Shown here one piece after another: positions 2,884 through 17,054 of a stretch of 64,000 bases of DNA (position 1 is the stretch's first letter; every line of letters starts with the position of its first letter). Location of the stretch: assembly GCF_000244875.1 (NCBI RefSeq), contig NC_016791.1:1361501-1425500 (forward strand), written 5' to 3'. Under the pieces are notes generated by a model that was not told the DNA's origin, did no database searches, and saw nothing but the letters and a program-made list of their open reading frames with translations. The DNA comes from Clostridium sp. BNL1100 (GTDB lineage: Bacteria; Bacillota; Clostridia; Acetivibrionales; DSM-1351). Position numbers and translations under genes: made by a program.

Positions 2884-3843
2884 TCAATATCTAATTGGTA
2901 TTATAGATTTTGTTATATTAATTAAATTATCATAACCTTTTAATTTCAAATATCGATTAAGCCCATCTTTAGCCAAACTATATTCAATTGTGGGGGAAAC
3001 TGTAATATTTTTTACAATATTTTTATCAAATTTTACATTGATAAAAGGAGCAAAAATACCATTTTTTAAACTAAAATCATGTAAATCGGATGATTGTTTT
3101 GTTGGAGGATCCTCAATAGGGACTTTAATAACAAACCTATATTCATTTTCATGTATAAAGGCCTTATCTTTAAAAAAAAGTCTAAATAGCTGTAAATGGC
3201 TAAAAATATCTTGTTCAGTACTGTCGTATATCATTTCTTTTTCCACTTCTGGTTCCAATTCAGTAGAGTTGGCATCCTGCAACCTGGAAGATAATAAATT
3301 ACTCATACTAATCAAGTAATTTTTTAAAATGTCTATTTGTTCGTTTTCAGTATAAACAACATTACCATGAAAAATTTCAATATTACCTTCTATCTTCGAA
3401 AGGTTAGATATCATTTCTTGAGTATTAAAACCAATATTATAGCCTATATACTTACTATTTTTAACATAATGGTTCCACATATTAAGCAAATCGTTATTAT
3501 TAGATGAACAAAAAACAAAATACCTTACATTATATCTAGTCATGTCGCACTCGGACTCAAATATGCTTTCTTCTACATTAAAATCATTTGTATATACGTT
3601 TTTTGCGATTTCTATTATTTCACTTCTTACCGTACCTTCAATTTGTTCGAGCACTTTTGTTAAAGATTTTTCTATATGTATATATTCAGATTTATCATTT
3701 AAAAATTGGCAATCCGTAAATCTAAAAATAGAGTTATCAATAATTGATTTTAAGCCTTCTGGTGAGGTATAGTGGAACTTAATACCTACTAAATCAGAAT
3801 CATCTTTGCATAAGAATTCATGTATTCTATTATCTTGATCCAT
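2884..3843 (-). CDS. DUF2971 family protein, possible phage-defence cargo
   Basis: This 319-aa protein has the DUF2971 pattern. There is an N-terminal FHYTSPEGLKSIIDNS segment followed by LNDKSEY (about residues 23-54), a central FCSSNNNDLLNMWNHY (about 112-127) with YIGYNIGF, and a C-terminal ENEYRFVIKV (about 230-245). The family is widespread on mobile elements, often near defence genes, and its biochemical activity is not known to me. It starts at ATG 3843 with an AAGGAA SD. It is reverse-strand inside a forward-strand prophage and 141 bp downstream of a P-loop ATPase on the same strand, so the two probably form one cargo module. Confidence 0.7.
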   Translation of the reverse strand: MDQDNRIHEFLCKDDSDLVGIKFHYTSPEGLKSIIDNSIFRFTDCQFLNDKSEYIHIEKSLTKVLEQIEGTVRSEIIEIAKNVYTNDFNVEESIFESECDMTRYNVRYFVFCSSNNNDLLNMWNHYVKNSKYIGYNIGFNTQEMISNLSKIEGNIEIFHGNVVYTENEQIDILKNYLISMSNLLSSRLQDANSTELEPEVEKEMIYDSTEQDIFSHLQLFRLFFKDKAFIHENEYRFVIKVPIEDPPTKQSSDLHDFSLKNGIFAPFINVKFDKNIVKNITVSPTIEYSLAKDGLNRYLKLKGYDNLINITKSIIPIRY

Positions 3844-3984: not shown

Positions 3985-5436
3985 TTATGGTCTACCTCGT
4001 AGGACTAAACCTAAACCAGATCTAAATAACCTAGGTATTTCAAACTTTTTGGCACTTGTAGACTTAATTTTAAGTGGAAGTGGTTGAATAATACCAATTT
4101 CATATAATTGTTGTATCATATCATCATCAGATGGATCCAATCCGGACATCATTTTTATTAAGTCACTTCTATCGAATTTTGAAATTGTACAACCTTTAAA
4201 TCTATCAAAATGTTTTTGAAGGGACGGGAATTCACTTAGATATGTAGAAAACTTAATTTCGGATACCTTATAATATGCATCTCTTACAGCCAGTCCTGAT
4301 ATTAAATAATTATTATCAGGCTGATAATCTTTTATTTGAATTTCTTTTGATATGTTTCCAAAGTTGATAAGGTCCCTAGGATATTTTCCGCCTAAACCAT
4401 CTGTAATTCTTGCTATCATCCAATCAACAATATTAGCTTCACCCTTACCTTTATAGACTTGTTCTTGAAAAAGAGTACAAAAAGCTTTTCCCAAATTAAC
4501 ACTATTTAGTATATCGTTTTGAGAGATTCCGCTCTTGTTACTTATAAATTCAAGAATATCTGCTTGTGAACAAACTCTTTTAAGTAGTAGTGCCATAAGA
4601 GATTTGTTATCCCAAGTTAATTCTATTGTTTTTCCTTCAACATGGTCTTTATTTACAAAATGAAGTGTATTCCAGATATCATTTCTTAGAAAAATTTTTA
4701 ATTTTATTTTAGAGTATTGTGAAAACTGTGAATTGACTCTAAATAAACTTTCAATACATTGTTTCCTTTTATTATAATCGTTAGAAAATAACTCATCAAT
4801 CTTATCAAAAAGAACCCACACTTCTTTATTTTCTTGTATCAAAAGATCATTTATTTCTGCTAAAATATCTTGAGTATCAATTTGAGTCTTACCACCAATT
4901 TTAAATTTTACACCTTTGTATTCAATATCTATTCCCTTAGGAGGTACACCAAATATTAATTTCCATAAAGATTTAATTAGCGGAAGAACTCTGACATCTA
5001 CCAGATACCCAGCTTGTTTTAAAAACTCTGATAAATTTTCACCAGAGCTATATCCTAATTCACCTAACTTGATTGCTACTTTTATAGCTATATATAATTG
5101 CCACGTATTATCAAAATCAAAATTAGGCTGTCTCATTAACTTTTCCATATCATCAGTTTTTAATTCTTTTAAATCTTTAAATCCAGTACCGGTAACAAAA
5201 ATTACATTATCTATATAATTTCCAGCTAATTTTCTTGTTTGAGCTTCATATTTAGAAAACATTTCAAATAAAGCACTTTTCCCAGATCCCTTAACTCCTT
5301 TAATCAAAACAATATTAGTTTTAATGAATTTTTCAAAATCAGTTGTTTTTAAGAATTTACGATCTAAGTTAGACTCAGATTCAGAATCTACTTGTCCAAA
5401 ATCCAATAATTCTAATAATTCTGGTATTGTCGTCAT
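3985..5436 (-). CDS. Large P-loop ATPase of mobile-element type (Sll1717-like)
   Basis: This 483-aa protein has Walker A GVKGSGKS at residues 47-54 and a Walker B-like VWVLFDKIDEL at about 206-216. This resembles the STAND/KAP-like 'P-loop ATPase, Sll1717 family' group. The segment after Walker B (FRVNSQFSQYSKIKLKIFLRNDIW) matches the 'sensor' region of such ATPases, ending in an FLRND motif. The C-terminal half is helical with a possible winged-helix segment (DLIKMMSGLDPSDDDMIQQLYEIGI). No nuclease or membrane domain was seen. It may sense or signal for a toxic partner. The adjacent DUF2971 gene is the obvious candidate partner, which is inference. Confidence 0.65.
   Translation of the reverse strand: MTTIPELLELLDFGQVDSESESNLDRKFLKTTDFEKFIKTNIVLIKGVKGSGKSALFEMFSKYEAQTRKLAGNYIDNVIFVTGTGFKDLKELKTDDMEKLMRQPNFDFDNTWQLYIAIKVAIKLGELGYSSGENLSEFLKQAGYLVDVRVLPLIKSLWKLIFGVPPKGIDIEYKGVKFKIGGKTQIDTQDILAEINDLLIQENKEVWVLFDKIDELFSNDYNKRKQCIESLFRVNSQFSQYSKIKLKIFLRNDIWNTLHFVNKDHVEGKTIELTWDNKSLMALLLKRVCSQADILEFISNKSGISQNDILNSVNLGKAFCTLFQEQVYKGKGEANIVDWMIARITDGLGGKYPRDLINFGNISKEIQIKDYQPDNNYLISGLAVRDAYYKVSEIKFSTYLSEFPSLQKHFDRFKGCTISKFDRSDLIKMMSGLDPSDDDMIQQLYEIGIIQPLPLKIKSTSAKKFEIPRLFRSGLGLVLRGRP

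Positions 5437-8425: not shown

Positions 8426-8447
<22 letters not shown>
6975..8447 (+). CDS. Large serine recombinase (phage-type integrase)
   Basis: This 490-aa protein catalyses site-specific integration and excision. The resolvase domain (about residues 1-140) has the Y-A-R-Y-S-S motif with R8 and the likely nucleophile S10, plus the RLMEGILESFAEYYSE helix. The 'recombinase' DNA-binding domain covers about 150-260 (GGFAPLGYDI ... NKKYIG). A zinc ribbon follows (CESC ... CKKC, about 293-325), then a long coiled coil (about 355-420) and a C-terminal tail. ATG 6975 follows GGGAGG. The last residues (GADEGT and stop) are encoded by the 3' end of a tRNA-Leu on the other strand, so the gene abuts the attachment site. 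Large serine integrases that use tRNA genes are less usual than tyrosine ones. Confidence 0.92.
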
Positions 8448-8508
<61 letters not shown>

Positions 8509-8705: not shown

Positions 8706-9071
8706 ATGAGTAACGGTTTTTGGGATGAAGATGATTACGATTACGATGACCACGTCGATGACCAACAGAGTGACACTCATTATGACACAGAGGATATAGT
8801 TGATGAAAATAAAGATTCAGAAGATGATGACAATGATGATGACGGAGCTGACAAAGAAGATGATGAAGATCAGGAAACTGAAGATACTGATATGGGAGAA
8901 AATTCAAGTGGGTATTCTAAACACAGTATAATAAAACAGCAATCTTCAAATAGTCCAAGTTTCCACGGATATGGAAAATGTATGCGTTATCTTTGCAACT
9001 GCCAGCATTTTGAGAGCATATCCGGTAATACGTGCAGTAATTGCGGACACAGCTACAGTGACCATTGGTAA
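8706..9071 (+). CDS. Highly acidic protein with a C-terminal Cys/His cluster (dynamin operon gene 1)
   Basis: The start is ATG 8706, 8 nt after GGAGG. The ATG at 8700 is too close to the SD. The 121-aa product is extreme in composition: residues 6-65 are mostly Asp/Glu, probably disordered. A Ser/Gln-rich linker leads to a C-terminal cluster (about residues 90-120) with C-x4-C-x-C-x2-H and then C-x2-C-x-H-x4-H (ending NCGHSYSDHW), suggesting one zinc site, possibly two. Similar short CxCGHxxxxH-type tails occur in other bacterial proteins, but I know no function for this one. It is the first gene of a tight forward operon with the GTPase and could be an adaptor or a charge-based regulator. 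Confidence 0.7.
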   Translation: MSNGFWDEDDYDYDDHVDDQQSDTHYDTEDIVDENKDSEDDDNDDDGADKEDDEDQETEDTDMGENSSGYSKHSIIKQQSSNSPSFHGYGKCMRYLCNCQHFESISGNTCSNCGHSYSDHW

Positions 9072-9114
9072 TAATAACTAATTAAAGAGATTTATAATAC
9101 GAGGAGGTAATACT

Positions 9115-10515
9115 ATGGCATTTGGGGTAGATGATATACTCGTTTTGGTTGTATCAAGGCTGGCAACCCGAGCAATTTCCTCCGTAGCAAAGAAGTCATA
9201 CGACTTTTTTACAGGTAAAGAGCAAAAGGAAATACAGAAGAAAAAGGAAGAAGCAGCCATTAGTTTTGAGAATAAAAGCAAGATACAGCTGATTGATCAT
9301 CAGTTCAGGTTGACGGAAGCAAGGACACAATTTGAAATGCGTATGGAAGAGTGGAAGCAAAAAACCTTTTATTCCAACTGCTGGCCTTTAAGAGAACCTT
9401 TTGATATGCACTTTGCTCTTACTACACCCTTTGAAGGTTGCAGTATTGACGGTAAAGAAGTAATCCCATGCAGGATAATAACGTCGTTAAAAGATAAAGA
9501 CCATCCTATTGCAAAAAATATAAATGGAAATCTGTCTTCATTTCTTATAACACATTATAATAGCGTAAGCACTCACCCGGTAATATCAGATATAGGGAGT
9601 TGGAGGGAGGATTCACCTTCTAACGATGCATCAATAAATTACTTGTTTTCAGGGCTTCAAGGCCAGCCTGTTTTAGTTTTTACACCTGAATTCGTTAATG
9701 ACGGACAAACAATAATTCTGAAAATATGGTCATGGGGGTTGGGTGAAAAGGTAAACCTTCCTGTGGGAGTTGAGTTCGGAAGGATTAATATTAAACCCCT
9801 GTATCTTAATGCTTTATATGAAGAAAGTAAAAAGAGTATGGAGCTAATTCAGGAGTTGGGAATAAAATCAGAAGGGTTTTATTCTGAAAAACTAAATAAT
9901 AACATAAAGATTATTAAAATGATTGATAAGCTTAGTGATCAGGGTGAGGATAAAAAGCAAATGATTCAACAGTTGTATTCACAATTATCAGAAACAGATG
10001 AAATAAGGGATGCTGTTAAAGAGAAGATTTCTGAGCAGGTATCTGGTATTTTTTCCTGTTGCGCAGGGATGTATGCCGACGCATATCATCTGGTGGAATA
10101 TGGAACTGTTCCCAAACTTCCTTTGCTGGTCGGAAGCATACCGGGGGCGGAAATGATACGATGTTCTATAGGAGATTTTTATATATCATTGCTTTCGGAA
10201 ATTGAGCAAATAGATAATTATAGCTCAGTTCTCCCGGATATTTATGCTGATACAGCAAATGCGTTAGCCAATATGGGAGCTACTTACGAAGAAGTCAACA
10301 AGTACGTAAAGCCTCTGCTAAGCAGGGGGATAAATCTGTTTACATATGGTAATTGTAATTCCTTGACAAAGGCAAAAATCCAAAATATCAGCAGTCTGGA
10401 TGAAAGTCTTGATAAACTCTTGAGAGAAAATGTATCAAATTTGGACAGAAGCTTTTTGGATAGGATAAATTCGGTACTAAAGTCTATTCATCACCCAGCC
10501 TATCCACTACAGTGA
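9115..10515 (+). CDS. Unrecognised 466-aa protein with amphipathic N terminus (dynamin operon gene 2)
   Basis: It starts at ATG behind GAGGAGG. Residues 1-28 (DDILVLVVSRLATRAISSVA) could form a hydrophobic or amphipathic membrane-associating helix. A lysine/glutamate coiled coil follows (about 35-85: KEQKEIQKKKEEAA ... RTQFEMRMEEWKQKT). A folded middle region (about 90-250) opens with the aromatic segment YSNCWPLREPFDMHF and contains WREDSPSND and IWSWGLGEKVNLPVGVEFGR. The C-terminal third is helical, with a moderately hydrophobic stretch near VSGIFSCCAGMYADAYHLV. No catalytic motif was recognised. Position directly before the dynamin-like GTPase (41 bp) suggests a partner that targets or is remodelled by it. 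Confidence 0.65.
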   Translation: MAFGVDDILVLVVSRLATRAISSVAKKSYDFFTGKEQKEIQKKKEEAAISFENKSKIQLIDHQFRLTEARTQFEMRMEEWKQKTFYSNCWPLREPFDMHFALTTPFEGCSIDGKEVIPCRIITSLKDKDHPIAKNINGNLSSFLITHYNSVSTHPVISDIGSWREDSPSNDASINYLFSGLQGQPVLVFTPEFVNDGQTIILKIWSWGLGEKVNLPVGVEFGRINIKPLYLNALYEESKKSMELIQELGIKSEGFYSEKLNNNIKIIKMIDKLSDQGEDKKQMIQQLYSQLSETDEIRDAVKEKISEQVSGIFSCCAGMYADAYHLVEYGTVPKLPLLVGSIPGAEMIRCSIGDFYISLLSEIEQIDNYSSVLPDIYADTANALANMGATYEEVNKYVKPLLSRGINLFTYGNCNSLTKAKIQNISSLDESLDKLLRENVSNLDRSFLDRINSVLKSIHHPAYPLQ

Positions 10516-10556
10516 CTTGTATGAGAATTTGGAAAAAGAGATAAGGAGGAATGTTA

Positions 10557-13175
10557 ATGTATAACAGCGAGAAACTAAAGTCAACTCAGAAACTTTTAGA
10601 GGATTTGGGTAATGGTATGACAGTCCTTTTTAATGAATACAAGGAAGACTTTTTAGGCGATGAGCTGGTTACTTCACAATTCAAAAGTTTTTTTGAAGAA
10701 CACAAACGTGCCATGGAAAGGATAAAAAATCCCGTTCTTTCTATTGCTACTATAGGCACTACTTCGTCGGGAAAATCAACACTTACAAATGCATTGGCCG
10801 GAAAAATGGTAGCACCCATAGATTCAGGTGAAAAAAGTGCCGGAATTCTGGTTTTGAAAAATTCTAACAAACGGTCTCTTTATATAGAAAAAACAAAAAA
10901 TGCAAGGTGGAAGACCGGACAAATTAAGCAGGATATTTCAGATGAAGAGGCATATAACATTAATAGTGACACAATGAAAACATATTTTGATAATAGAAAA
11001 AATTCTGCACCTCCGAGGATTTACTCAAAAGGGCCTTTGCTTATAGGTTCGTCACCTGAAATGCTTAACCTTCCCGAAGATATATGCGTTGAGCTTGTAG
11101 ACCTGCCCGGTCTGAAAAACAGTGGAGATAAGGAAAATCTGAGTGTTATACAGGAGATGCTGACAAGGTCCCTTTGTCTTGTGGCGATGGACTATAGCCA
11201 TACGGATGATGAGAATCGTAAAAAGCTTCTGGGAGAACTAAAGGATATTGTTAATTTCTTGGGAGGCAGACATGATTCAATAATTTTTCTGCTTAACAGG
11301 GTCGATTTAAGAAATGAGACAGATGTAGAGCTTGATTTAAATATATGTAATCTTAAAAAAGAGATCAGGGAAGTATTATCCCTGAAAAACGAACCTGAGA
11401 TAATACCGTTTACCGCACTTCCCCTGTTCTATGCACAGTGTGCTTGGGGGCCTGTTTCACATAAAGATAAGAACAAGGAGCCTCAATATCCCAATGATGC
11501 TCTAAAATATAACTACAAATGGTTTCTCAAAAGCTTGATGAAGGATTGCTATGATATATATGACAGCAATGCAAATAATGAAGAACTTGAAAAGTGGCTT
11601 GCCGAATTAAGAAGCAGTGTAAAGCACGGTCATGATTTAAAGGAAGAGGATTTTAGAAAGCTCCTTGATTATACATACGAATGCAGTAACGGAAACCTGC
11701 TGTCTGAGAGAATACAGGAGAGGCTTAATAACAGTTTTTCACAGTTGATTATAATGCCTGCAATATGCGAATTATTTAAAATATTCTGTGCTCTCCACAG
11801 TACCTTAAAAACTCTTGGGAGCATAAGAGTTACAAAATCAAAGCTGAGACTTGTAAATTATTATCTGGGTACTGTAAGACTAAAAGCCGAGCTTATAGGT
11901 TGTGATAGTGAAGAAGCGGCCAATAGTATAAAAAGTGACTTGAATTCAATATTGGATGAACTGGCAGAGTACGAAAGCAAGGATATCCCCGAAGAGGAGA
12001 GGAACAGAATAGACAAAGTCAAGTCTGAGGTTATGTCCTTAAAGGAGGAAATTGTAATTTCACCTGGGAGGATAGGTGAAAAAAAGCAGGAGTTTCAGGA
12101 AAATCTTCAGGAAATAACAAGGAAGATAAATGAGGGAAAAGGAACATATGATGCAGAACAGTTTGTTAATGACCATGAAGAAATATTCGGAAGCATTGAT
12201 GATTTTTCCAATATGTTTGACTCGGTTGCACATCTAACGGATGAATTGAGGCTGGGAATAATACAAATTATCGGGGATTCCATTATAAATAATGATACAT
12301 ACGATGAAGTGCTGGGAAAAATGGATTTTCTTCCTGCCGAAGTGTCGTCCCGACTTGCAAGGGCATATGATTATGTCAGCAGAATTATACTTGGCGGACT
12401 CAGGGACAAGGAGGTAGTTAACAATCACTTTGTTATGAAATCTGCAAATAAAACCGAAGAAATTCAGAAATATATGGAACGCTATGATTTTTTAGATGTA
12501 GCAATAAACAAAGCACTTTCTACAAGAGCGGGACTACTGCTCCAATCGTATTCACATGAGTTGGTTCTTCCACTAAAAAATATGATTCAGGGGCATATAG
12601 ACGAGATAGCAGAAATATGCAGGAAAAAGCTGGGGATTAATGATCTTGAAATCACTGAAACAATTGAGAATATTCTTCAAGCTGTAGATATTAATGAACT
12701 GTCTTTGCCTGACGGAATTTTTGAGTTTGCTTCAAAACCTCCGGAAGAAGAAGTTAGTATAGGTAAAAAAACAGTGTGGAAGACACGGATCAAGCAAGGT
12801 TCATTTTGCGGAAGCAGTAGCACTGAAAGCTATGTTGAGTATGTTGATGAAATGGGAAATATTTATTATTTTCCTAATGGTGTAGCCTTGAAACAGAAAT
12901 GGGACTATGGCTTGACCAATGCTAAAGAATTATTCTGGAAGTATATGTTTGAATGGATGGCTGAACAGTTGAACAGTTATTCCGATGCATTTTCAATTTC
13001 AATAAATACTCTTATAACTACCGTAAACGATACAATAAAATCGAAAATAAGCATGAGCGAGCAAAAGCATGAAGAGGAAGTCGGAAGATGGAATAAAATT
13101 TTACTTCAAGCCAATAATGCATCTGCGGTATCCAAAAGTATTAAGGAAGTTGCCGTTGACGGGAACGGGGTTTAA
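10557..13175 (+). CDS. Dynamin-like large GTPase (dynamin operon gene 3)
   Basis: The start ATG 10557 is chosen over 10551, which abuts the AGGAGGA SD. The 872-aa product has a GTPase domain with P-loop GTTSSGKS at 67-74, G3 DLPG at 182-185 and G4 NRVD at 247-250, preceded by a helical segment (1-58) that could pack as a neck or bundle. The C-terminal 500 residues are mainly long helices (KSEVMSLKEEIVISPGRIGEKKQEFQENLQEIT), as in the stalk of bacterial dynamin-like proteins. A beta insertion follows at about 735-780. I see no clear transmembrane paddle, so membrane contact may come from its operon partners. Bacterial dynamins remodel membranes. Roles known in the family include membrane repair and phage-stress response, and which applies here is not known. 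Confidence 0.85.
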   Translation: MYNSEKLKSTQKLLEDLGNGMTVLFNEYKEDFLGDELVTSQFKSFFEEHKRAMERIKNPVLSIATIGTTSSGKSTLTNALAGKMVAPIDSGEKSAGILVLKNSNKRSLYIEKTKNARWKTGQIKQDISDEEAYNINSDTMKTYFDNRKNSAPPRIYSKGPLLIGSSPEMLNLPEDICVELVDLPGLKNSGDKENLSVIQEMLTRSLCLVAMDYSHTDDENRKKLLGELKDIVNFLGGRHDSIIFLLNRVDLRNETDVELDLNICNLKKEIREVLSLKNEPEIIPFTALPLFYAQCAWGPVSHKDKNKEPQYPNDALKYNYKWFLKSLMKDCYDIYDSNANNEELEKWLAELRSSVKHGHDLKEEDFRKLLDYTYECSNGNLLSERIQERLNNSFSQLIIMPAICELFKIFCALHSTLKTLGSIRVTKSKLRLVNYYLGTVRLKAELIGCDSEEAANSIKSDLNSILDELAEYESKDIPEEERNRIDKVKSEVMSLKEEIVISPGRIGEKKQEFQENLQEITRKINEGKGTYDAEQFVNDHEEIFGSIDDFSNMFDSVAHLTDELRLGIIQIIGDSIINNDTYDEVLGKMDFLPAEVSSRLARAYDYVSRIILGGLRDKEVVNNHFVMKSANKTEEIQKYMERYDFLDVAINKALSTRAGLLLQSYSHELVLPLKNMIQGHIDEIAEICRKKLGINDLEITETIENILQAVDINELSLPDGIFEFASKPPEEEVSIGKKTVWKTRIKQGSFCGSSSTESYVEYVDEMGNIYYFPNGVALKQKWDYGLTNAKELFWKYMFEWMAEQLNSYSDAFSISINTLITTVNDTIKSKISMSEQKHEEEVGRWNKILLQANNASAVSKSIKEVAVDGNGV

Positions 13176-13176
13176 G

Positions 13177-13950
13177 ATGAAAATAGGCGATGATATTAAA
13201 ACTTGGGAGAAAGAATTTCTTAAACAATGTGATTATTGTGAAAATGAAAAAGATAGCTTAAAATGCGCAGTCAACAGATTAACTGACATTATTCCCCATT
13301 TTAACACATTCGATGAGGATGGCAGAAAAATAATTGATAAATGCACCGATTATTTCTCTAAACTGTTTGAGCCTTTATATATACCTTTGAATAAGAAGAA
13401 AGGAGGATTAAGAATGAAGGGCCTTTTTATTGCAGGGCTGGCTATAGTGGGTATATCTATGATTTTTATCTTTCAAAGAAAATATAACAATAACCAAAGG
13501 GAAATGCCCCTTGAAAGAAAAGAGAAAATTGCTAATGTTTATAAGTCTTCCAGTATATCGGAAGAAAATATATTGATTCTTGTTCTTAGAGCAGGCAACG
13601 AAAGCTGCTTGAATACCTTGAAAGAGAATATGCATCTTTCAGAGGAAGTCTGTGATGAGTTGTACAAGGCGACCAGATACTTATGGGTAGGAAATACCAA
13701 TCAATTCAAAAACTCAAGGATAATAAAATGGTTTAATGAAACTAACAGCCCGACACAATCAAGTGGTTTGGATGTATACCTGATTAAATTAGTTTTAGAA
13801 AAAAACTATAGTGGTTTGTTGCAGTCCGCAGACGGTCAGTCTCGCTATAATGCATTTAAACAGCTATGTCAGGATGGATTGCAGATTGAAGAATTCTCTC
13901 CAAGGGTTTCAAACGCTGCATATGGTACTACCGAGGTATATGAAAGATAG
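13177..13950 (+). CDS. Single-pass membrane protein (dynamin operon gene 4)
   Basis: ATG 13177 lies one base after the GTPase stop, so translation is likely coupled. The 257-aa product has a soluble N-terminal helical part (residues 1-79, with CDYCENEKDSLKC), one transmembrane helix (about 82-98: FIAGLAIVGISMIFIF) and a helical C-terminal part (about 110-257). An in-frame ATG at 13414 is preceded by AAAGGAGG at ideal distance and would give a 178-aa form that begins with the membrane helix. Both forms may be made, or the two parts may once have been separate genes. The family is not recognised. It may anchor the GTPase to the membrane. Confidence 0.65.
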   Translation: MKIGDDIKTWEKEFLKQCDYCENEKDSLKCAVNRLTDIIPHFNTFDEDGRKIIDKCTDYFSKLFEPLYIPLNKKKGGLRMKGLFIAGLAIVGISMIFIFQRKYNNNQREMPLERKEKIANVYKSSSISEENILILVLRAGNESCLNTLKENMHLSEEVCDELYKATRYLWVGNTNQFKNSRIIKWFNETNSPTQSSGLDVYLIKLVLEKNYSGLLQSADGQSRYNAFKQLCQDGLQIEEFSPRVSNAAYGTTEVYER

Positions 13951-13958
13951 GAATTTCG

Positions 13959-13996
13959 TGGAGGATGTATTCCATTTCAAAAGTTTACATCCTCCA
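13959..13996. terminator. Bidirectional hairpin closing the dynamin operon and the MFS gene
   Basis: The 11-bp arms TGGAGGATGTA (13959-13969) and TACATCCTCCA (13986-13996) lie between convergent genes. The MFS stop codon is inside the right arm. On the forward strand it is followed by a loose T-rich stretch (GACTTTCATTTTTC). Confidence 0.65.
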
Positions 13997-15315: not shown

Positions 15316-15771
15316 TTATTGAAATCTTACATGATGTTTTACTTGGAAATTATGGTCATTGGAACATAGATATACAATACCTTCAATAAAAGCAATAAAA
15401 CTTGGAATAAAAGTCCAGCTGAATAACAGATAAAGTATACCTTTACCTATTTTGCCCATGTAAAACTTGTGAATTCCGAGTCCACCTAAAAATATAGCTA
15501 AAAGACCGGCTACAATTTTGTTCTTTATTGGCCAGGCAGGATTAATACCGTTGTTTATATACTGCTGCTGAGCAAATTGCTGTTGTGCCACCTGCTGTTG
15601 GTACAGTAGTGCTTCAGCTTTAAAGTCAAACTCCTGCTGTTCGGAAACAGGTCTCTGAGTAGCTGTTGGAGCAGAATTATTATTTACAGTCAAAGCTTCA
15701 CCGCAATATTTACATTCCCTATCACTAAGAGCATTTGGTGCTCCGCATTGAGGACATTCATTTTGAGCCAT
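15316..15771 (-). CDS. TM2-domain membrane protein with N-terminal zinc ribbon
   Basis: In this 151-aa protein, residues 6-25 form a zinc ribbon (CPQC ... CKYC). A Gln-rich linker (about 55-75: QQQVAQQQFAQQQY) follows. The C-terminal TM2 domain (about 80-140) has two membrane helices and the hallmark GGLGIHKFYMGKIGKGILYLLF, then WTFIPSFIAFIEGIVYL. TM2 proteins are small inner-membrane proteins of mostly unknown role. The next gene upstream on the same strand also carries zinc ribbons with an SPFH domain, so the pair may act together at the membrane. Confidence 0.88.
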   Translation of the reverse strand: MAQNECPQCGAPNALSDRECKYCGEALTVNNNSAPTATQRPVSEQQEFDFKAEALLYQQQVAQQQFAQQQYINNGINPAWPIKNKIVAGLLAIFLGGLGIHKFYMGKIGKGILYLLFSWTFIPSFIAFIEGIVYLCSNDHNFQVKHHVRFQ

Positions 15772-15850
15772 TTTTATACCACCCTATCTTATTTATTTTA
15801 ATTATATTTATTAAAAATATGATATATTACAAAAAGTCTAACCACAATAA

Positions 15851-16981
15851 TTACAGCTTTTTACCGCATTGTGGGCAAAATTTTGTGCCTACAGGGATTT
15901 CTGCTCCGCATTCACAATTCTTGGTTCCCATAGGCGTTCCACATTCAGGACAGAATTTTGGATTGCCGGGTACTAATGCTCCGCATGAAGTACATTTCTT
16001 CTTTGGAGTTTCCAATGGTTTTCCACATTCACAGCAAAACTTTGACTTTGCAGAATTTTGAGCATTGCAGGAGGGACATGCTATAGTTGCCGTATCTGCA
16101 GCTGCTCTTGTATTAATGGTGTTATGCATGTTGGAACCCAGAGAAGCACCTATCCCAAAACCAACACCGCCTGAAGCAAATGCACCTGCAACCCCTGAAT
16201 TATTGCTGGCAGCATGGTCATATACATCAAAAGAACGTTTTGTTACATAACGGTTGTCACCCATAATTTCAAATTCAGCCTTGTTTTTGAGAATTTTGTT
16301 AATTTCCTCAAAGTCTTCATCGGGAAAATTAATGGACTTTATAATTAAGTTGATAGCAGTTAATCCGTATTTTGAAAATTCCGGAGCAATCATTTCAAGG
16401 GTGTAATTTGCAATATCATCCAGTCTCGCAGTAATCTCTAACGCAGATATTTTTTGATTTACTATTACATTGGCGATTATACTTTTTATCTTCTGAATCA
16501 AGATTCCCTTGAAGAAATCTATGACATTGTCAAATTTAATAATATCAGCCGGATTCATTACACCAATCAGTTCACGAAAAAAGGTTTCATAGTTTTCGAG
16601 TTTTAAGCCCATCTGGCCAAAAGCACGAACCCTTAGTCTGGTATAATATTTAGGATCAATTATTTGTACTGGATCGGATGTTCCCCAGTTGATATCAAGT
16701 TTTGTGGTAGTATTAATATAAAAAATTTCTGCACTAAATGGGGTTTTTCCTCCAAAAGGCAAATTAACAAAGGCTTTAAGTATTGGAAGATTTTTAGCAT
16801 CAAGGGTATACGTACCCGGGGTAAACAGGTCACAAATCTCTCCGCCTTTAACAAAAACTGCAACTTGTCCTTCACCTACAATAAGCTGTGTTCCATATAC
16901 AAGATCTTCGGCGGGATGTTTGTAAACAATCCAATCACGGGATCTAAGTCCGTCAAATTTTACTCTATCAATGATAGCCAT
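15851..16981 (-). CDS. SPFH/Band-7 domain protein with two C-terminal zinc ribbons (YdjI-like)
   Basis: The start ATG 16981 lies 9 nt after GAGGTG. An upstream extension to 17041 lacks an SD. In this 376-aa protein, residues 1-250 resemble the SPFH-containing 'virion core protein-like' family (DWIVYKHPAEDLVYGTQLIV near the start, GTYTLDAKNLPIL near 65). A Gly-rich low-complexity stretch (about 275-300) follows, then zinc ribbons CPSCNAQNSAKSKFCCECG, CTSCG ... CPECG and CECG ... CPQCG. SPFH proteins oligomerise on membranes and scaffold other proteins. B. subtilis YdjI of this kind is recruited in cell-envelope stress, and function here is inferred only. Confidence 0.82.
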   Translation of the reverse strand: MAIIDRVKFDGLRSRDWIVYKHPAEDLVYGTQLIVGEGQVAVFVKGGEICDLFTPGTYTLDAKNLPILKAFVNLPFGGKTPFSAEIFYINTTTKLDINWGTSDPVQIIDPKYYTRLRVRAFGQMGLKLENYETFFRELIGVMNPADIIKFDNVIDFFKGILIQKIKSIIANVIVNQKISALEITARLDDIANYTLEMIAPEFSKYGLTAINLIIKSINFPDEDFEEINKILKNKAEFEIMGDNRYVTKRSFDVYDHAASNNSGVAGAFASGGVGFGIGASLGSNMHNTINTRAAADTATIACPSCNAQNSAKSKFCCECGKPLETPKKKCTSCGALVPGNPKFCPECGTPMGTKNCECGAEIPVGTKFCPQCGKKL

Positions 16982-17054
16982 ATTGGACATCACCTCACAA
17001 AATATTGTTTTAATTATATCATAACACACCTTGTAAATCAAACCTTTGAGGCTG

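Follow-up and report, generated by a model that had tools for sequence, protein, structure and literature searches.

A dynamin-like GTPase and its membrane partner in Clostridium sp. BNL1100: a candidate conflict system with an exchangeable third component

What is a bacterial dynamin for when it is encoded in one operon with three proteins that belong to no recognized family? The question is raised by four genes of Clostridium sp. BNL1100, whose genome groups with Ruminiclostridium, and we know of no established job for most bacterial dynamins. The genes lie in a stretch of 64,000 nucleotides (NC_016791.1, positions 1,361,501 to 1,425,500; here called the window) and encode, in order, an acidic protein, a protein of 466 amino acids (aa) referred to as p466, a dynamin-like GTPase and a single-pass membrane protein that we call the membrane partner. 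A first-pass annotation of this DNA had proposed a multi-component membrane-remodelling or phage/stress-response system. The reading that we favour, with slightly better than even confidence and with defence inferred from the relatives of the genes, is that the operon would encode a conflict (anti-phage-like) system that is switched by the dynamin, tethered to the membrane and equipped with an exchangeable component that attacks membranes.

The GTPase matches the Pfam family Dynamin_N with 49.2 bits (cut-off 27) and carries the motifs G1 (GTTSSGKST), G3 (DLPG) and G4 (NRVD), which place it in the dynamin superfamily by its GTPase domain, as the first-pass annotation had it. Across a family of 25 rows, G1 (G67-S70, G72-T75) and G3 (D182-G185) are invariant, as are N247 and V249 of G4, and D250 is nearly so. 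The closest solved structure by sequence is that of a cyanobacterial BDLP (2j68, E 1.6e-4). Hydropathy, the only measure used here, peaks at 1.71 (residues 397-415) and gives no clear transmembrane paddle. Full-length relatives outside the genus are 24-33% identical. The plasmid search returned a single full-length relative (28.9% over 99%), encoded by a conjugative-typed plasmid of Nostoc, as well as five Lactococcus records that align with the GTPase part only, and no relative was found in viral contigs.

Immediately downstream of the dynamin gene in the window stands the gene of the membrane partner, and this order recurs in another phylum. A scan of one genome per species, which looks for two short dynamin peptides only and therefore undercounts, returned 31 loci, comprising one from Ruminiclostridium, 26 from cyanobacteria and four from Methylococcales. 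In five of the cyanobacterial loci the contig breaks off shortly behind the dynamin, one of these loci retaining the start of a membrane-partner gene. The order dynamin, membrane partner is found in 20 of the 21 uncut loci (the exception is L054), and a third gene of one and the same family is present in all 21; three of them (L029, L055 and L058) have a broken dynamin frame. All three genes are also present on the Nostoc plasmid, where the protein encoded next after the dynamin is related to the membrane partner of the window (27% over 201 aa). For 19 of the 26 cyanobacterial loci the whole genome was searched, and as these genomes were chosen for holding the dynamin, it is adjacency and not presence that is the evidence: the third gene occurs in all 19 and the membrane partner in 17, and every one of the 17 has its strong membrane-partner match right beside the third gene.

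A single clear hydrophobic segment is seen in the membrane partner (residues 82-100, Kyte-Doolittle 2.25), in agreement with its earlier description as a single-pass protein. The part conserved beside the cyanobacterial dynamin is its soluble C-terminal domain (about residues 130-257), which is predicted with confidence to be a small alpha/beta domain; a search of the PDB with the whole protein gave no significant match. Within a phylum sample of 398 genomes the membrane partner was matched strongly in its own genome, with three weak partial matches, two of them with stops. Sequence comparison indicates that the dynamin and membrane partner are an ancient pair, conserved together in Bacillota and Cyanobacteriota, and the proposal of a multi-component dynamin system is upheld to that extent. 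Other dynamins of the Clostridia gave seven weak matches, several of which by eye adjoin further large GTPases, and the profiles of p466, the membrane partner and the third gene found no match in their seven regions. A tree built from 25 dynamins separates the two Ruminiclostridium rows, on a long branch, from the 20 cyanobacterial ones; because long branches meet in this tree, no direction of transfer is claimed from it.

The third gene of the cyanobacterial module is informative as to what the module may act upon. All 17 members scanned (22 were found) match the PADLOC model of JukB, with a best E of 1.7e-16, and on the Nostoc plasmid member the match spans residues 12-130. Two Nostoc loci have the third gene fused to an N-terminal class-3 lipase (Lipase_3, E 4e-29 and 3.6e-28), and the one of these two that was tested for JukB matched it (E 1.4e-4). 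The third protein has its own hydrophobic stretch, at 1.4-1.8 in the intact members listed. Because of the lipase fusions and the JukB similarity, a membrane is the likely target in cyanobacteria. Two modules have defence genes as neighbours. In Nodosilinea (L055:2363-6944) the module, its dynamin frame broken in the assembly, lies between the end of the PglX gene and the PglZ-BrxL genes of a BREX system, all in the same orientation, and 12 bp separate its last gene from PglZ; on the Nostoc plasmid, HmaC and HmaB follow the module. In two Nostocales loci the third gene overlaps at its end with a small gene (L035:14524-14901 and L048:15028-15429) that encodes two membrane helices as judged by eye; we read it as an optional fourth component.

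Where cyanobacteria have the JukB-like gene, the Ruminiclostridium operon has p466 and the acidic Cys/His protein, both encoded ahead of the dynamin. The earlier statement that p466 has no known family stands: its best E values are 0.045 in Pfam and 0.011 in PADLOC with no match in NCBIfam, and for p466, the membrane partner and the acidic protein together these three libraries gave no significant match (best E 0.011). The N-terminus of p466 is mildly hydrophobic (1.42 at residues 7-25) and seems by eye to be followed by a coil. The acidic protein ends, as first described, in a Cys/His tail, C-x4-C-x-C-x10-C-x2-C-G-H, which is conserved and looks zinc-ribbon-like by eye. Among the genomes searched, the genes of these two proteins accompany the dynamin and membrane partner only inside the genus. 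An order sample of 58 genomes contained p466 in its own genome, two congeners and genome G032; a class sample of 391 gave strong matches in its own genome and G007 with two weak partial ones, and the phylum sample a strong match in its own genome with three weak partial ones. Neither plasmids, phages nor viral contigs yielded p466, nor did plasmids yield its distant relative from G032.

That distant relative is the one clear example outside the genus (26% over residues 37-211, E 3e-11 in the order sample; 24% when aligned over its length), and it opens an operon that also encodes two DO-GTPases (E 3e-12 and 3e-8). No relative of the window dynamin was found in the 15-kb region around it. The first-pass idea that the genes travel together therefore held for the dynamin and membrane partner, and only inside the genus for the acidic protein and p466, whose distant relative occurs without this dynamin. 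In the operon of the relative (L026, G032:C53, 201-5315, minus strand) a 426-aa protein completes the set of four. Three of these proteins have similar short C-terminal tails, D-[IV]-F-[SA]-[IL], and the p466 relative has a similar stretch, EEDIFNL, internally; a shared docking tag is possible.

In the window the four genes are tightly packed on the plus strand between tRNA-Leu(TAG) and a convergent MFS gene (Table 1). The ORF list confirmed the positions and the gaps of 43, 41 and 1 bp given previously, which are exact for the start codons then chosen; an alternative in-frame start of the membrane partner at 13069 would overlap the dynamin gene. All four genes occur in identical order in three of the 11 genomes of the family (own included), the dynamin and p466 being present in the same three, and in the two other holders they stand beside the same tRNA. 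Ratios of nonsynonymous to synonymous substitution rates (dN/dS), computed between the window and each of these two holder genomes, are 0.07-0.32 across all four genes. The values are 0.07-0.11 for the dynamin and p466 (p466 0.11), 0.13-0.26 for the membrane partner and 0.31-0.32 for the acidic protein, which is the fastest evolving of the four; the MFS neighbour has 0.07-0.12. Given the order kept in three of 11 genomes and the dN/dS values, the four-gene arrangement is more than chance.

Table 1. Features of the operon and its boundaries (window positions; pI, isoelectric point)
Feature	Position	Strand	Basis
tRNA-Leu(TAG), left boundary of the operon slot	8426..8508	-	tRNA search; empty sites in G002 and G005
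Acidic protein, 121 aa from ATG	8706..9071	+	ORF list; pI 4.05
p466, 466-aa protein	9115..10515	+	ORF list; without significant family match
Dynamin-like GTPase, 872 aa from second ATG (874 aa from 10551)	10557..13175	+	ORF list; Pfam Dynamin_N
Single-pass membrane partner, 257 aa	13177..13950	+	ORF list; hydropathy; relatives
11-bp perfect inverted repeat with 16-nt gap, between operon and convergent MFS gene	13959..13996	.	Repeat search

The MFS gene is present in eight of the 11 genomes searched, and the comparison of empty sites covers these MFS-bearing genomes. In G002 and G005 the tRNA stands directly beside the MFS gene and the operon is absent. The empty site of G002 keeps a headless scrap of about 45 bp that matches the end of the membrane-partner gene; therefore the operon, or at least this gene, was once present in G002 and then lost. 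In G001, G008 and G010 (MFS 67-70% identical) the stretch fetched contains no tRNA and no other operon genes. The inverted repeat between the operon and MFS gene is possibly their shared terminator; it is missing from the output of the terminator scan.

An origin from the tRNA integration hotspot, beside which the first-pass annotation had placed the operon, was considered and rejected. A serine recombinase (Pfam) overlaps the 3' end of tRNA-Leu(TAG); the operon lies on the 5' side of the tRNA and the fetched regions of the two other holders gave no recombinase match, so the operon is not cargo of the neighbouring integration. The scrap in G002 fits this rejection.

Taken together, these comparisons show a constant core, made of a dynamin and a single-pass membrane protein, that is joined by different third components in different lineages. 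The conflict-system reading is based on the kept module order, the JukB-like and lipase-fused third gene, the BREX and Hma neighbours, the p466 relative found with DO-GTPases, and the patchy presence of the operon. In the mechanism that we propose, the membrane partner would anchor the dynamin at the cell membrane, where its soluble domain would report a threat or gate the GTPase. With GTP, the dynamin would then assemble where the membrane is under attack and so gather and release the third component, which would damage or seal a membrane, either the cell's own (abortive infection) or one associated with the phage, and phage production would stop. In the window p466 may be this component, an analogy drawn only from its place in the operon, and the acidic protein, with its presumed metal binding, may serve as an inhibitor of p466 or as a sensor.

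Several observations weigh against this reading. The structure prediction for p466 is poor (predicted local distance difference test 33), p466 and the cyanobacterial third-gene family are without similarity (probability 0.2), and PADLOC found no JukB match among the four window proteins, p466 included. The connection between p466 and DO-GTPases comes from one genome and is a lead only. With respect to co-occurrence, the 19 cyanobacterial genomes were picked because they hold the dynamin, two of them each hold one weak membrane-partner match elsewhere, G827 has a partial second copy of the third gene, and four genomes have weak, N-terminal-only third-gene matches off the module. The right-hand neighbours in the window (MFS, TM2, SPFH) are ordinary. 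Neighbours were also compared with the defence library: from 149 open reading frames of at least 120 aa, with loci L024, L028 and L044 and genes more than 4.5 kb away excluded, 115 were scanned, the 34 others being 25 from Methylococcales, five from three look-alike loci, two small downstream genes, one very large gene and one dynamin fragment. The 115 matched 76 families (25 listed), the number of matching proteins not being given, and as there was no control set no enrichment is claimed. PD-T4-6, mad6, PDC-M37B and HEAT-ARM models are among the 25 listed and are not tied to a locus; JukA is not among these 25 and has no match in the window operon. When ten neighbours were scanned singly, only those of L055 and L023 were assigned to named systems and six had no match.

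A rather unlikely alternative is that the operon serves membrane maintenance, the membrane protein recruiting the dynamin to patch or fuse membranes damaged by antibiotic, solvent or phage stress while p466 and the acidic protein have structural or regulatory roles. It would agree with Bacillus subtilis DynA, which reportedly has a part in membrane surveillance and delays phage lysis, with the purifying selection on the dynamin and p466, which resembles that on the MFS neighbour, and with the scrap in G002, by which the operon or its last gene was formerly there and was not freshly acquired in the window species. Patchy presence in the family, a third component that varies by lineage and can carry a lipase, and placement inside a BREX locus and on a conjugative-typed plasmid are harder to reconcile with maintenance. 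The phage or stress role first proposed is accordingly kept in part: defence is favoured on the strength of the relatives and neighbours described above, by inference, and a membrane-stress role is the less probable possibility. Vesicle release, in which the dynamin makes vesicles that export the third protein, with the lipase and p466 as cargo, is very improbable. Disruption of leoAB in E. coli reportedly led to less vesicle-linked secretion, and the lipase fusions would suit such an export; the BREX and Hma neighbours and the JukB similarity would be left unexplained, and the hydrophobic stretch of the third protein is unlike a simple cargo.

It is also improbable that the operon is a divergent LeoA/LeoBC system, for which we take Eleos to be the name. 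The system is dynamin-based like the window operon, its LeoA and LeoBC models are part of the PADLOC defence library, and at E <= 1e-3 the LeoBC model matches 23 and the LeoA model 17 of the 25 dynamins in the family. However, the window dynamin itself scores low (LeoBC 17.7-18.2 bits, LeoA 14.3 bits), and whereas Eleos has paired dynamins, the window operon has one dynamin with different partners, its constant partner being a membrane protein. No second dynamin is labelled in the cyanobacterial modules, where one of another family would escape labelling. The Methylococcales relatives come closer to Eleos: each of the four loci (L052, L053, L056 and L057) encodes, after the dynamin, a partner of 316-338 aa and then a second dynamin of 769-797 aa. 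Three of the four also hold further GTPases; two more gene families precede or follow in L052, L053 and L057, and those of L052 match MMR_HSR1/DUF697 and MMR_HSR1/Dynamin_N. We read these loci as Eleos-like clusters richer than the LeoA/LeoBC pair. The 316-338-aa partner aligned with the window membrane-partner family at hhalign probability 35 (E 4e-4, 49 columns), and the window profile gave 11 bits on one Methylococcales partner. The gene after the dynamin is therefore a possible remote relative of the membrane partner, and Methylococcales a possible, weakly supported third lineage with the pair. A 15-bit profile match between this partner and protein four of the DO-GTPase operon was set aside as apparently compositional.

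How does the dynamin, membrane-partner and JukB-like module relate to systems already described? Section 7 of PMC5827413 sorts the cyanobacterial BDLPs into KGK, HSR1, chaperone (DnaK) and tandem clades and an unsorted rest. The BDLP1/cBDLP clades are, like the window GTPase, large dynamin-superfamily GTPases, and neither the membrane partner nor the JukB-like third gene is mentioned in that section, taken without its supplement. The Juk system shares the JukB region with the cyanobacterial third gene, and a review reports phospholipases among its effectors and pore formation by JukB on the phage early vesicle; in contrast, the window has no JukB match and the constant part of the module is the dynamin and membrane partner. 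In the 'GTPase-centric' conflict systems of PMC7159879, DO-GTPases act as the switch, and constant parts are combined with variable, effector-like parts and often with membrane parts. These DO-GTPase/GAP1 systems have in common with the module a GTPase switch, a constant partner, a variable further component and membrane parts, and the p466 relative heads a double DO-GTPase operon; the window GTPase is instead a dynamin, and no window protein matches a DO-GTPase. The module is not described in the portions seen of PMC5827413, PMC7159879, PMC13282480, PMC4159319 and PMC8844932, a coverage that lies mostly outside subscription papers and does not extend to supplements. We take the module to be a variant of GTPase-centred conflict systems, and there is a fair chance that it forms a class of its own.

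Further genes of the window may be noted apart from the operon. Judged from its ORFs, with family searches only of the recombinase and one ATPase, the recombinase side is probably a prophage. It contains a 483-aa P-loop ATPase of the Sll1717 family (3985-5436, minus strand; NCBIfam E 2e-57, PADLOC PDC-M28C E 2.8e-18) adjoining the gene of a 319-aa protein (2884-3843, minus strand), and the two are possibly a defence pair on the integrated element. On the other side, at 15316-17041 (minus strand), an SPFH/Band-7 protein with several zinc ribbons is encoded beside a TM2-domain zinc-ribbon protein; G002, G006 and G007 also keep this pair close to the MFS gene, and the G005 region gave no match to it.

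Interferon-induced dynamin-family GTPases (GBP/IRG) attack pathogen vacuoles and break open membrane-bound intruders. If the conflict-system reading of the operon is true, the module would be a bacterial counterpart of these immune GTPases. It is conceivable, at somewhat under even confidence, that it represents an undescribed antiviral class in which a dynamin and a dedicated membrane protein form a fixed sensing and assembly core that loads interchangeable attackers (a JukB-like pore, a lipase or p466), and which would make bacterial dynamins, Juk and DO-GTPase conflict systems parts of one exchange network across Cyanobacteria, Clostridia and perhaps Methylococcales. One bacterial dynamin lineage has thereby gained a fixed membrane partner, a lineage-variable third component and, in two places, defence neighbours, and with them a testable prediction of what a dynamin may be for.

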